A DNA stretch of 47,826 nt from Akkermansiaceae bacterium (lineage in GTDB: Bacteria; Verrucomicrobiota; Verrucomicrobiia; Verrucomicrobiales; Akkermansiaceae): NCBI GenBank assembly GCA_023263995.1, contig JALQTQ010000001.1:1-47826 (forward strand), given 5' to 3'. Under the pieces are notes generated by a model. The model searched no databases. It was not told the origin of the DNA and saw nothing but the letters and a program-made list of their open reading frames with translations. Positions 8,454 through 16,170 of the stretch are shown one piece after another; the first letter of the stretch is position 1; the number at the start of each line of letters is the position of its first letter. The position numbers and the translations under genes are program-made.

Positions 8454-10031
8454 ATGATTTTTGACCTGATCCGCAAGCGCAATGGCAATTGGAAAGATGA
8501 CACCCTGTCCGGCCTGACGGTGGCCTTGGCGCTGGTCCCGGAGGCCATTGCCTTTTCCTTCATTGCTAATGTGAATCCGTTGGTGGGTTTGTGGGCGGCG
8601 GTCTTCATGGGCTTCATCACGGCCTCACTGGGTGGGCGTCCGGGGATGATTTCAGGAGCGACCGGAGCCATCGCGGTGGTGGTCGGGAAGCTGGTGGAGA
8701 AAGGAAATGAAGCGGGGGCGGCCCGGGGGGTCGAGGATTTGGGTCTGCAGTACCTTTTCGCCGCGATCATGATCGCGGGGATCATCCAGGTGCTCTTTGG
8801 GGTGCTGAAGTTGGGGAGGTTCATCCGGTTGGTCCCGCATCCGGTCATGATGGGCTTCGTCAATGGCCTCGCGATTGTCATCCTGCTGGCACAGTTCGGG
8901 TCCTTCAAGGATGCCTCCGGCAGCTGGCTGCCGCAGAATGAGCTCATGGTGATGGGGGTGTTGGCTGCGGTCACAATGGCTATCATCCATTTTTTCCCGA
9001 AGCTCACCAATGCGGTGCCCTCGATTCTGGTGGCCATTCTCGGGGTGGGGTGCGCGAGTTACTTCGGACTTTTCGAGACCAAGACGATCGAGGACGTGCT
9101 GCGTGGCGGTGGCGGAACGGGTGAGTTGAAGGGGAGTTTCCCGGTGCCGGTCTGGCCGGGCGATATTGAATGGGACCGAGCCACCTTGTTCCTGATCGTG
9201 GGCACGGCCTTTTCAGCCGCAATGGTGGGGATTGTCGAGTCGCTCATGACCCTGCAGTTGATTGACGACATGACCGAGACCCGGGGGCAGGGGAACCGCG
9301 AGTGTCTGGCGCAGGGGAGTGCCAACTTTCTCTCGGGTCTTTTCGGCGGGATGGGCGGATGTGCCATGATCGGGCAGAGTTTGATCAACATCAAATCGGG
9401 CGGCCGCGGCCGCTGGTCCGGGATCGTGGCCTCACTCGCGCTGGCCCTGTTCATCATGGTGGGCGGTCCGGTGATCGTGCACATCCCGGTGGCGGCCTTG
9501 GTGGGGGTGATGTTCATGGTGGTGATCGGGACCTTCGAATGGGCGACCCTGCGGACCTGGGGGCGCGTGCCCTTCCACGACATCTTCGTCATCGTGGCCG
9601 TGACCGTGATCACGGTGTGGACCGACAACCTCGCGCTCGCGGTCTTTGTCGGGGTGATCCTGTCGGCCCTCGTCTTTGCGTGGGAAAGTGCCAAGCACGT
9701 GCGGCTGCGCCGCGACGACAGCCAGGAAGGGGTGCGGATCTACAACCTGCAGGGGGTCCTTTACTTTGGATCGGTACGCGAGTTCGCCGAGCGGCTTGTG
9801 CCCTCGAATGATCCCGATGAAGTGATCATCGATTTCAAGGAAGCTCGGGTGGCCGACTTCTCAAGCCTGGAAGCCTTGAATGCCATCACCGAGCGATACA
9901 AAGCGGCTGGGAAGCGGGTGCGCCTGCGTCACCTCAGTCCGGCCTGTGCCAAGCTAATCGACCGTTCGAGCGCCCTCGTGACGGTGGAGGTGGCCGACGA
10001 TGACCCGCACTACGAACCGGCAAATCTCTGA
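8454..10031 (+). CDS. SulP/SLC26-family anion transporter with C-terminal STAS domain
   Basis: 525 aa, GLTVALALVPEAIAFSFIA, GATGAIAVVV, GMGGCAMIGQSLINIKSGGRGRWSG, then STAS-like VLYFGSVREFAERL..VIIDFKEARVADFSSLEAL. Confidence 0.92.
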   Translation: MIFDLIRKRNGNWKDDTLSGLTVALALVPEAIAFSFIANVNPLVGLWAAVFMGFITASLGGRPGMISGATGAIAVVVGKLVEKGNEAGAARGVEDLGLQYLFAAIMIAGIIQVLFGVLKLGRFIRLVPHPVMMGFVNGLAIVILLAQFGSFKDASGSWLPQNELMVMGVLAAVTMAIIHFFPKLTNAVPSILVAILGVGCASYFGLFETKTIEDVLRGGGGTGELKGSFPVPVWPGDIEWDRATLFLIVGTAFSAAMVGIVESLMTLQLIDDMTETRGQGNRECLAQGSANFLSGLFGGMGGCAMIGQSLINIKSGGRGRWSGIVASLALALFIMVGGPVIVHIPVAALVGVMFMVVIGTFEWATLRTWGRVPFHDIFVIVAVTVITVWTDNLALAVFVGVILSALVFAWESAKHVRLRRDDSQEGVRIYNLQGVLYFGSVREFAERLVPSNDPDEVIIDFKEARVADFSSLEALNAITERYKAAGKRVRLRHLSPACAKLIDRSSALVTVEVADDDPHYEPANL

Positions 10032-10220: not shown

Positions 10221-11326
10221 ATGATTACCCGCCTCCATATCAACAATTTTGGTGCCTGGTGGCATTCGAAATGAGGTTTGATTCGTTTCAGGTGCTTTGT
10301 GGGCCGAATGGGGCGGGGAAAAGCTCGGTGTTTGACGGCTTGAAGCTGATTCGCAACTTGGGATCGGGAGATGGGATTTTGGGCGGCGAGGGCGAATGCG
10401 ATGTGCAGCACCTTGATTTTACCAGCTGGCTGAATTCCACGGTCCAAGAGTTTGAGTTGGGTCTGCAGCTCAACGAGCAAGAGTTCACCTACCTCCTTCA
10501 TCTGGAACAGGTTGCGGCAGACCTCAAGCCGCGCATTGTGCGGGAGAAAGCCAGCTGTGACGGGAAAGTGATTTTCGAGAGGGACCTGGAACATGTCAGG
10601 CTTCCCACGAGCGATGGATCGGAGGCGACTTTTCCTCTGGATTGGCGCAGTTCCGCGCTCGCGGCGATTCAAGCCACGGGTGAACGTTTTCCAGTGGAGA
10701 CCCTGAAAGAGGCCGTTGCCAATCTCCTCATTTTGCGGCTCAGTCCCCGGACAATGGAGCAAGAGAGCAAGTTGGAGGCGCGGCAGCCGGACCTGATGAC
10801 GAGCAATCTCATTTCGTGGTATCGCTCGCTGTATCAGGACCAGGAATGGACTGATTCGCTGCGGGAACTCTTGCAAGAGATTTGGCCGGATTTTCGGGCC
10901 TTTCGGATGGTCGATGTCGTTTTGAATACCAAGGCCCTGCAGCTCAAGTTTACCGGAGACTCCCATCAGACCGAGTTGTTTCTTCATCAGCTCTCCGATG
11001 GTGAAAAGGCCCTGGTCGGCCTCTACATGCTGCGGGCGACTTTGGGGGCGGGAAAAGTGCGCACCATTTTGGTGGATGAGCCGGACAACTACATTGGGCC
11101 GCAGGAGTTGCAGCCGTGGGTGTATTCCATCCGCGAGCTTCTGGATGAGGAGCACCAATGCCTCCTCATTTCCCATCACCCGGAGATCCTCGCGTCATCG
11201 GGCGCGGAAAATGGGCGGTATCTTTGGCGGGACCATCACGCTTCTCCCGCCCGCAGTGGTCCGTTGAAAGTGGCCGATGGGATGAGCCCGGGAGAAGCGG
11301 TGGCAAGGGGGTGGGTCCATGCCTAA
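10221..11326 (+). pseudogene. AAA (ABC/SMC-like, OLD/AAA_15-type) ATPase with an apparent -1 frameshift near 10250; intact ORF only from 10259
   Basis: ATG 10221 gives MITRLHINNF and then runs out of frame. One extra base after 10250 restores NNF[R]CLVAFEMRFDSFQVLCGPNGAGKSS. Downstream motifs: LSDGEKALVGLYML (signature), TILVDEPD (Walker B), LLISHHPE. Confidence 0.75.
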
Positions 11327-11885
11327 CCGCACACAGATTCTCTGTTTGCACGAGGGCCGGGACGGACGAAGCATTGATCCGCTTTTCATTCGGACCTTGG
11401 TCTAAGGACTAAAACCATCGTGGAACGCGCCTTGGCCCGGCAGCAATGTCATCCGGATGGTGGGATGTCCTGGTCGGAAAGAACTGATGGAAACCACGCC
11501 GCGAGAATTGCGGGCCGTGTTGGCGCAGGGAAACCGGGTGACCTTGATGGTCTGGGCGGATCTCGATCACGATCAGGCGGATGGGGATGCTTTGAGGGAG
11601 GATTTTTGGCGGGAATGCGAGCGGCAGGGGGTGAGTCGGGCGGAATTTGAAACCATCGTTTTCGCTTTTGCCAAAGACCGTTTGGAGAACTGGATTCAGT
11701 TTTTGAATGAAGGAGCCACAGACGAGAAGGTGGAAGGCCCGCGAGTCAAGTTTGACCGCGAGGTGGGAAATGCCGCGAAGAAACTGGCCAAGATGTGCCT
11801 GCGCGGAGCGGACGGCGAGAGTTTGCCAAAGTCGCTCCAATGGTCGTGCAAAAACTGGCGGGAGCTGGTGGGGAGAATGAGGTGA
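11319..11885 (+). pseudogene. TOPRIM-like partner protein of the ATPase, interrupted by an in-frame TAA at 11403-11405
   Basis: ATG 11319 overlaps the ATPase stop (ATGCCTAA). It reads MPNRTQILCLHEGRDGRSIDPLFIRTLV*GLKPSWNAPWPGSNVIRMVGCPGRKELMETTP..TLMVWADLDHDQADGD..KDRLENWIQFLNEG..SCKNWRELVGRMR in one continuous frame apart from the stop. HEGRD and DLDHD fit TOPRIM E / DxD motifs. Confidence 0.65.
11842..11873 (+). repeat. Imperfect direct repeat, copy A (end of the TOPRIM-like gene)
   Basis: ggtcgtgcaaaaactggcgggagctggtgggg, compare copy B at 12005. Confidence 0.6.
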
Positions 11886-12041: not shown

Positions 12042-12509
12042 TCACTTTCCGGTTTTTCTTTCAAGGTCATTTCGTCTTCCGCGCCAGCGCCAGCCACAGC
12101 GGGCGTGGTCGAGTTGGAGTTCCTCCTGGTCGGAGTAGAGGAGGAGGCCGACCTTGTCCTTGTTGAGAGTGGCCGGGAAGGCAAGGACGGCGGCGACCTC
12201 GGCGGTGTATTCGGCCTTGGTGGTGGTGCCGGAGCCGAAGTGTCCCGAGGCCGAGCGGTCGACGAGGAAGAAGACCTTCTGTTCCCGTTCCTCGGTGAAG
12301 AGTTTGATGTAGGGGGAGCCGAGACGGGCCGAGACGTGCCAGTCGATGGCGCGCATCTCGTCGCCTTCCTGGTATTCCCGGATTTCGGCAAACTCGATGC
12401 CGCGGCCTTTGAAGGAGGCGTGCCAGGTTCCGGCGGTACGGTTTTGCACGATGCGGCGGCTGCGGAGTTCGATCCGCCGCACCTTTTCCATTAACTCGGA
12501 GGCCAGCAT
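12042..12509 (-). pseudogene. DUF58-domain protein, C-terminally truncated
   Basis: 155 aa: RRIVQNRTAGTWHASFKGRGIEFAEIREYQEGDEMRAIDWHVSARLGSPYIKLFTEEREQKVFFLVDRSASG..NKDKVGLLLYSDQEEL, the N-terminal half of DUF58 proteins; the rest is missing and replaced by a low-similarity tail. Confidence 0.8.
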
Positions 12510-12515
12510 GGGGGA

Positions 12516-12743
12516 TCAGGGAGTGCGCAGGGTGTCGCAGACATCGTTGAGTCCGATGGAGTGGGTGAGTTGCGTGAAGAGCAGATTGGCCGCATGGCTC
12601 CACGGGGTGAAGGTGCGGGTTTGCTTGTCGATCCCGTGCTCGCGAGCGAGCTTCGGGACCAGATGAGGGGGAATGAGCTTGCAGAGCTGGGCGAAGACGG
12701 GGAGCTTGGACTTCGCTGGTTTTTGATTTTTCATCAGGCCCAT
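12516..12743 (-). mobile_element. Remnant of an IS4-family transposase (N-terminal DUF4372-like domain only)
   Basis: 75 aa: FAQLCKLIPPHLVPKLAREHGIDKQTRTFTPWSHAANLLFTQLTHSIGLNDVCDTLRTP*; characteristic N-terminus with no catalytic domain. Confidence 0.82.
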
Positions 12744-14899: not shown

Positions 14900-15051
14900 G
14901 GGTTTTCTGCAAATTTGCTTTGCGTGTCACCACGGATCCTCATTGAGTCGGCCGGACACCTGTGGTGCCAGCGGGGAACGGACTCTCGAACGGACCGTAG
15001 GTCTGCACCGATCCGTCGCCGGCGATATTGTCGTGTCGCTAGATGACATGG

Positions 15052-15090
15052 GGTTGTCAGGCGGGGGTGGAACCCGCCAACCTGACAACC
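15052..15090 (+). promoter_or_regulatory. Stem-loop directly upstream of the IS110 transposase start
   Basis: GGTTGTCA GGCGGG ggtggaa CCCGCC aacc TGACAACC, ending 3 nt before ATG 15094. Confidence 0.7.
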
Positions 15091-15093
15091 GTT

Positions 15094-16170
15094 ATGATTA
15101 CAGATAGAACGTCTACCAAATCCCACGCCACGATCAAGCTCGGAATCGATGCCCACGCGAAGTGGTATTACGTGGCCCGGCAGCTGGACGGGGCCACCCC
15201 GCAGCCGGTGCAGAAGATGGACCTCGATGGCCTCCTGCACTTCGTGGCCAAACAGCAACGCCTGGCCCGGGAAGTGCACACCTGCTACGAAGCGGGGGCC
15301 TTCGGCTTCTACCTGCACCGCAAACTCGTGGCGATGGGAGTGCACAACGTGGTGGTGCAGCCTCAAGACTGGGACGAGCGGGGCAAGCGGGTGAAGACGG
15401 ACCGGATCGACGCCCTGGCGCTTTGCCAGCGGCTGGACCGCTACGTGCGGGGCAACCGCAAGGCCTTCAGCGTGGTGCGGGTGCCCAGTGAGGAGGAGGA
15501 ACGGGAGCGGACCTTGAGCCGGCAGCGCCAGCAACTGGTGCGGGAACGGCAGCGGCTCCAGGCGATGGGCCGCAGTCTGCTGGCGATGCACGGGATCCAT
15601 GTCACCGGGAAGTGGTGGAAGGGTAAGACCTGGGCGATGATCGGAAGTGAGGCCCCGGAGTGGGTGGTGGAGCGACTCGAGATCTTCATTAGGCTGATCG
15701 AACCGGTGGAGGCCGAGGAGCGGAAGCTGACCGAGGCGATCCAGGAGGCGGCGCGGGACCGCAAGATTCCGAAGGGAGTCGGGCCGCTGAGCTTCGAGGT
15801 GCTGCGTCGAGAGGTGGGGGACTGGTCACGCTTCAACAACCGCCGCGAAGTCTCAAGCTACACGGGTCTGTGTCCGCGGGAGCACAGCAGTGGAGGCAAG
15901 CGGCGGGGCGGAAGCGTCAACAAGAGCGGCAACCCGCGGGTGCGGGCGATGCTCGTGGAGATGGTGTGGCGCATGATCCGCTGGCAGCCGGGCTACCACG
16001 CTCTGCGCAAGTGGATGCCGGTGCTGGGCGACGCCAAGCGCAGTGCTGCGGCGCGCAAGAAGGCGATCGTGGCGGTGGCACGGCAGTTGGCGGTGGATCT
16101 GTGGCGGCTCTTCACCGGGCAAACCACTGCCGAAAACCTCGGACTGATTTACCTTCCCCACGCGGCCTGA
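15094..16170 (+). CDS. IS110-family transposase (DEDD recombinase + Transposase_20)
   Basis: IKLGIDAHAKWYYVARQLDG, KTDRIDALALCQRL, SYTGLCPREHSSGGKRRGGSVNKSGNPRVRAMLVEMVWRMI. Confidence 0.92.
   Translation: MITDRTSTKSHATIKLGIDAHAKWYYVARQLDGATPQPVQKMDLDGLLHFVAKQQRLAREVHTCYEAGAFGFYLHRKLVAMGVHNVVVQPQDWDERGKRVKTDRIDALALCQRLDRYVRGNRKAFSVVRVPSEEEERERTLSRQRQQLVRERQRLQAMGRSLLAMHGIHVTGKWWKGKTWAMIGSEAPEWVVERLEIFIRLIEPVEAEERKLTEAIQEAARDRKIPKGVGPLSFEVLRREVGDWSRFNNRREVSSYTGLCPREHSSGGKRRGGSVNKSGNPRVRAMLVEMVWRMIRWQPGYHALRKWMPVLGDAKRSAAARKKAIVAVARQLAVDLWRLFTGQTTAENLGLIYLPHAA

Follow-up and report, generated by a model that had tools for sequence, protein, structure and literature searches.

A stretch of DNA from a member of the Akkermansiaceae carries an ATPase gene that runs into a small gene, and both appear broken. 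What kind of module did these two genes form, is the copy still functional and does it belong to any system that has already been named? The window, i.e. the whole stretch of 47,826 nucleotides analyzed here, corresponds to C111, one of the 562 contigs in a draft genome (3.85 Mb, 81% complete).

The gene pair, its lesions and its genomic site

The preliminary description had noted an ATPase gene overlapping a small gene with HEGRD and DLDHD motifs, and both genes and both motifs were indeed located on the plus strand (Table 1). In the ATPase gene, the frame that begins with MITRLHINNF... is lost by a one-base frame shift at about 10250-10253, before the P-loop. Walker A and the remaining ATPase sequence are read in a frame that is open from 10259 and comprises 355 aa up to 11326. 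It contains Walker A (GPNGAGKSS), the signature (LSDGE), Walker B (VDEPDN) and the switch histidines (SHHPE), matches the AAA_21 profile with 1.4e-15 and also resembles SMC_N and Rad50. The partner gene is interrupted once, by a TAA in frame at codon 29 (11403-11405), where the partner of the intact close homologue pair L100, to which the window genes were aligned for placing the lesions, has lysine. As the frame continues past this TAA to the natural stop, we are dealing with a nonsense codon; a frame shift in the partner gene, which had also been considered, is ruled out by a frame that is continuous except for this one codon. The earlier statement of one lesion per gene is therefore correct, but the lesions differ in kind.

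Table 1. Features of the gene pair and its surroundings in the window.
Feature	Position	Strand	Basis or remark
SulP-family transporter, intact, left flank	8454..10031	+	89% (G532) and 88% (G579) protein identity, same genus
ABC/AAA_21-type ATPase gene (SMC/OLD-like), broken	10221 (ATG)..11326 (stop)	+	frame analysis, profile matches
Overlap of ATPase and partner genes, 8 bp, ATGCCTAA	11319..11326	+	
Small TOPRIM-like partner gene, broken, 188 codons (about 187 aa)	11319 (ATG)..11885 (stop)	+	frame analysis, homologue alignment
HEGRD motif of the partner	11349..11363	+	
DLDHD motif of the partner	11559..11573	+	
Remnant ORF after the partner, VKEKFSIMESVVSMFSGVGGLNMGFEG..., 43 aa	11882..12013	+	by eye like motif I of C5 DNA methyltransferases; no Pfam match
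DUF58 gene shortened to 155 aa (G532: 288 aa), right edge of replaced stretch	12042..12509	-	
DUF4372 (IS4-type transposase N-terminus) fragment fused to last MoxR codons	12516..12743	-	

Apart from one lesion each, the two genes are well preserved, and the partner retains the family residues E12, D83, D85, E123-W125 and E136. Identity at first, second and third codon positions amounts to 70/78/40% for the ATPase and 67/69/48% for the partner, with third positions diverging far more than the other two. Judged at the codon level, this is the pattern of protein-coding constraint rather than of chance frames and, as constraint is otherwise so strong, the same comparison makes the lesions recent or artefactual. 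With one disabling mutation in each gene, the copy in the window is probably inactive.

Both lesions were read from a single draft assembly, and under an alternative reading the module is of the proposed kind but sequencing or assembly introduced the lesions, so that the organism itself has two intact genes. The draft state of the genome, the restriction to just one disabling change in each gene and the strong codon constraint elsewhere in both genes speak in its favor. Nevertheless, we consider it unlikely, because the pair carries two lesions within 1.66 kb whereas a comparison of G000 with the same-genus genome G532, admittedly on a small sample, showed one lesion in 21.5 kb of sequence from 14 orthologue-like genes. 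In addition, the adjacent DUF58, methyltransferase-like and IS pieces are also truncated, and other decayed copies of the same pair are known (L148 and L149).

The surroundings of the pair are altered as well. In G532, the gene order is SulP, DUF4381-type gene, DUF58 and MoxR (DUF4381 and MoxR named by eye), and a DUF58 match is found close to SulP in both G532 and G579. The window lacks this arrangement: beginning directly behind SulP and reaching to about 12109, it has the cassette, the methyltransferase-like remnant and only the first part of DUF58 instead, with the DUF4372 fragment coming next. Flanking housekeeping genes had been described as intact; this applies to SulP on the left but not to the right side where, compared with the arrangement in G532, DUF58 is truncated and both MoxR and DUF4381 are absent. 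What is left at 12042-12743 belongs to a MoxR-DUF58-DUF4381 operon, complete in G532, which is cut on one side by the cassette and on the other by the IS4-type fragment. An intact-looking IS110-type transposase gene (named by eye) resides at 15043-16170, to the right of the debris zone.

Intact relatives, their distribution and genomic neighborhood

A search for intact homologous pairs in Verrucomicrobiota was successful and revealed close relatives in at least seven Verrucomicrobiae genomes. A profile search of the class identified L100 in genome G603, which belongs to another family, and a search in the order of G603 yielded six further intact partners that are 61-71% identical to L100, which served as query, along with some matches that are shorter or partial. 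The ATPase gene adjoins the partner gene in all six loci. L100 is the nearest of the relatives that were compared in full: its ATPase shares 60% identity with the window ATPase piece over 362 aligned columns, and the partners share 55% identity from end to end. Upstream of the intact G603 pair, a gene for a metallo-beta-lactamase-fold protein and one for a TIR-domain protein are present (L147:9033-10479).

A scan of genome contigs with the window ATPase as a single sequence returned no relatives; the alignment-based scan of genome contigs provided 80 good ATPase relatives from more than 20 phyla. The cultured Oligosphaera ethanolica (L025) also has an intact pair. In 73 of these 80 loci the partner is encoded directly downstream, the two genes usually overlapping, by 4-13 bp, or nearly touching; the spacing has a median of about -13 bp, and -8 or -4 is frequent. 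The family ATPases retain Walker A, LSDG(Q/E), Walker B and the SHHPE switch. Among 53 family partners, E16 and D81 are present in all and D79 in 52, and E133 and an IETW-like block are also kept. The window partner exhibits the same catalytic-type residues, i.e. E, DxD and the later Glu, with HEG replacing CED and LENW replacing IETW. Its length had been regarded as unusually short (about 188 aa), which did not hold up: the family median is 187 aa and the window partner is thus of normal size. In the phylogenetic tree, the window sequence shares a long branch (support 100/100) with seven sequences from Verrucomicrobiae, and profile comparison establishes homology of this clade with the wide family (P 2.9e-32).

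The occurrence of the ATPase is patchy. It is found in one out of 27 same-genus genomes, none of the other 26 that were searched containing it, and in ten out of 388 genomes of the phylum. A housekeeping role, considered as a further candidate, is disfavored by this distribution. Just two plasmid records contain an ATPase relative and none was found in phages; the partner was found neither in plasmids nor in phages. Scans of viral contigs resulted in three weak matches, all to the ATPase only. On the viral contigs L096 (4369-6173) and L098 (3304-5107), a distant ATPase relative is immediately followed by a gene for a 170-aa protein, and neither of these proteins matches the partner profile. 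In L013:930-2532 and L015:1426-2911, ATPase relatives are paired with a different small partner (EDDATRQ... IDFDK). Decayed copies of the module itself are present in L148:6567-7098, where residues 38-287 are missing from the ATPase and similarity to the partner stops near residue 57, and in L149:6681-6800, where just a partner fragment is left.

The loci of the closest clade point at restriction. In L144 (genome G809), which has an intact pair, the genes for HsdM (N6_Mtase), HsdS (Methylase_S), the ATPase, the partner, an IrrE peptidase and HsdR follow one another in the manner of an operon, hsdS overlaps the ATPase gene in L143, and HsdR comes after the partner in L145. In the wide family, neighbors differ between genomes and a recurrent defence family was not found among the neighbors of the 80 relatives, which indicates that the pair usually stands alone. 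In L010 and L011, the pairs have a methylase-like gene (DPPYYDAVPYADL(A/S)DFFYVW) on one side and a gene for a DUF499-like ATPase on the other (named by eye), a setting as expected for embedding of the HEC-01 type.

Intact copies across more than 20 phyla and the residence of the nearest ones inside restriction operons suggest that the locus most likely derives from a horizontally mobile two-gene module against phages that has since decayed. We assign this reading a probability of about 70%. The original proposal of a defence-type two-gene cassette is thus supported by the intact homologous pairs and the association of the nearest ones with type I restriction operons. On the other side, the accessible literature yielded no phage assay of this ATPase-partner family.

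It is also conceivable, albeit improbable, that the pair acts as a toxin-antitoxin or maintenance unit devoid of an anti-phage role, in which the ATPase neutralizes a small toxic nuclease. TOPRIM_OLD toxins are neutralized by AAA ATPases in the pairs that have been tested (PMC10440598), and the overlap of the genes and their patchy distribution fit such a unit. The location between hsdS and hsdR, however, points to defence, and the scarcity of the ATPase on plasmids and its absence from the phages searched speak against such a unit as well. Mechanistically, the two readings overlap. A function in DNA repair or chromosome maintenance, exerted by an SMC/RecF/OLD-like ATPase together with a nuclease, appears very improbable even though the ATPase resembles SMC_N and Rad50, the loci L004, L009 and L016 adjoin recF- or dnaN-like genes and, an archaeal ATPase of the OLD class is reported to function in the cell cycle (PMC12796447), because the ATPase is missing from the 26 other same-genus genomes, neighbors vary from genome to genome and decayed copies are tolerated.

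The small partner and a possible mode of action

The notion of an ATPase paired with a TOPRIM-like protein received mixed support. In the AlphaFold model of a family partner (pLDDT 91.6), E16 follows strand 1 and D79/D81 follow strand 3, and Glu and DxD are placed likewise in the model of the window partner (pLDDT 81.8). These are the positions of the TOPRIM motifs, and all three residues are present in the window. Weak profile matches recur: HEC-01B is matched by 24 of the 53 family partners (best 1.1e-6) and by seven out of eight partners from the window clade (best 3.7e-6), though not by the window partner piece when searched alone. The best values among the 53 partners were 1.6e-5 for DUF3226, 6.8e-4 for DUF4276 and 9.6e-4 for RloB, those examined lying below the Pfam cut-offs; DUF3226 and DUF4276 are families that we take to be TOPRIM-like. 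MAD4 weakly matches six out of 53. A comparison of profiles against RloB gave weak scores (P 0.0027 with an hhalign probability of 11% for the family, 0.064 for the window clade), although the motif blocks are in register. The fold check, in turn, did not bear out the proposal. Foldseek searches of the PDB with the family and window partner models gave no hit at E <= 1e-3 and no TOPRIM structure among the top 50; the matches included Rossmann-like alpha/beta proteins such as lumazine synthase. A sequence search of the PDB with the partner profile gave no meaningful match either. In view of these fold searches, TOPRIM identity is probable rather than proven. It is favored by the motif positions in a confident model, the recurrent weak profile matches and the kind of ATPase with which the protein is paired.

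Based on PARIS, we propose that the pair would constitute a module of a sensor ATPase and a nuclease effector. The ABC-type ATPase might serve as sensor and keeper and hold the small TOPRIM-like protein, putatively a metal-dependent nuclease, in an inactive state until infection leads to its release. In relatives embedded in restriction operons, the trigger may possibly be an anti-restriction protein, comparable to the case of Ocr and PARIS. The released nuclease would then cause growth arrest by cutting RNA, probably tRNA, or DNA. The nuclease activity, the sensor role, the trigger, the target and the abortive outcome are all suggested by analogy. More tentatively, and we regard this as rather doubtful, the window clade (HEG...GRSIDPxF...WAD(L/V)D...DRxENW) could represent a separate class of restriction-linked ATPase-nuclease guards that are positioned between hsdS and hsdR, watch the type I enzyme and fire when anti-restriction proteins block it. 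The effector may then have a nuclease fold lacking close solved TOPRIM relatives.

The copy in the window is a relic, yet it points to a two-gene family that occurs in more than 20 phyla and has an effector barely covered by Pfam and PADLOC models. As the nearest intact relatives reside in type I restriction operons, a back-up role when restriction is blocked is directly testable. The module has decayed repeatedly, as expected of costly mobile defence genes.

Comparison with named systems

The preliminary description considered the pair as possibly an unnamed subtype. This applies in part: the closest named models are HEC-01A and HEC-01B, with a confident match for the ATPase and a weak one for the partner. 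The window ATPase matches PADLOC HEC-01A with 1.1e-23 over residues 8-310 of 355, and gene order and sizes are as in HEC-01A plus HEC-01B. In contrast, HEC-01B is matched only weakly by both the family and the window clade, and the latter is set apart by its long, fully supported branch. Hma genes were not recognized beside the window pair, and its nearest relatives are found in type I restriction-modification loci. The HEC series comprises Hma-embedded candidates, and antiviral activity has been shown for several other members (PMC12988326); a statement on HEC-01 itself was not found.

The MAD3 profile of MADS matches the window ATPase (7.3e-14) and MAD4 some of the partners, as stated above, but the ATPase scores 42 bits against an NCBIfam MAD3 cut-off of 420 bits and a MADS operon is not present in the window. 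OLD and GajA from Gabija likewise couple an ABC ATPase with TOPRIM-type acidic motifs. There, however, both reside in one polypeptide (PMC10568477) while the window has two genes, and beside these no GajB-like helicase is encoded.

PARIS shares the combination of an ABC ATPase sensor with a TOPRIM nuclease effector that has a gene of its own. AriA keeps hold of AriB up to the point at which Ocr is sensed, whereupon AriB cuts tRNA (PMC12409363). AriA models match the window ATPase with 1.5e-14. An AriB match, in contrast, was obtained for one partner only (E 0.039) and for none in the window clade, and a PARIS structure was absent from the top 50 of the fold search. RloA/RloB and AbiLi/AbiLii also consist of an ATPase and a small partner with an E...DxD...P..(I/F)E.W pattern. 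RloB has been seen in operons for type I restriction and HHpred relates it to OLD_TOPRIM, while AbiLii acts as an effector of abortive infection (PMC10440598); the closest relatives of the window pair are similarly embedded in hsd operons. On the other hand, the RloB value given above was reached by just one of the 53 partners, the hhalign comparison is weak and RloB (PF13707) is not matched in the window clade. Taken together, the pair is most likely a decayed RloAB/AbiL/PARIS/HEC-01-like module of known general type.
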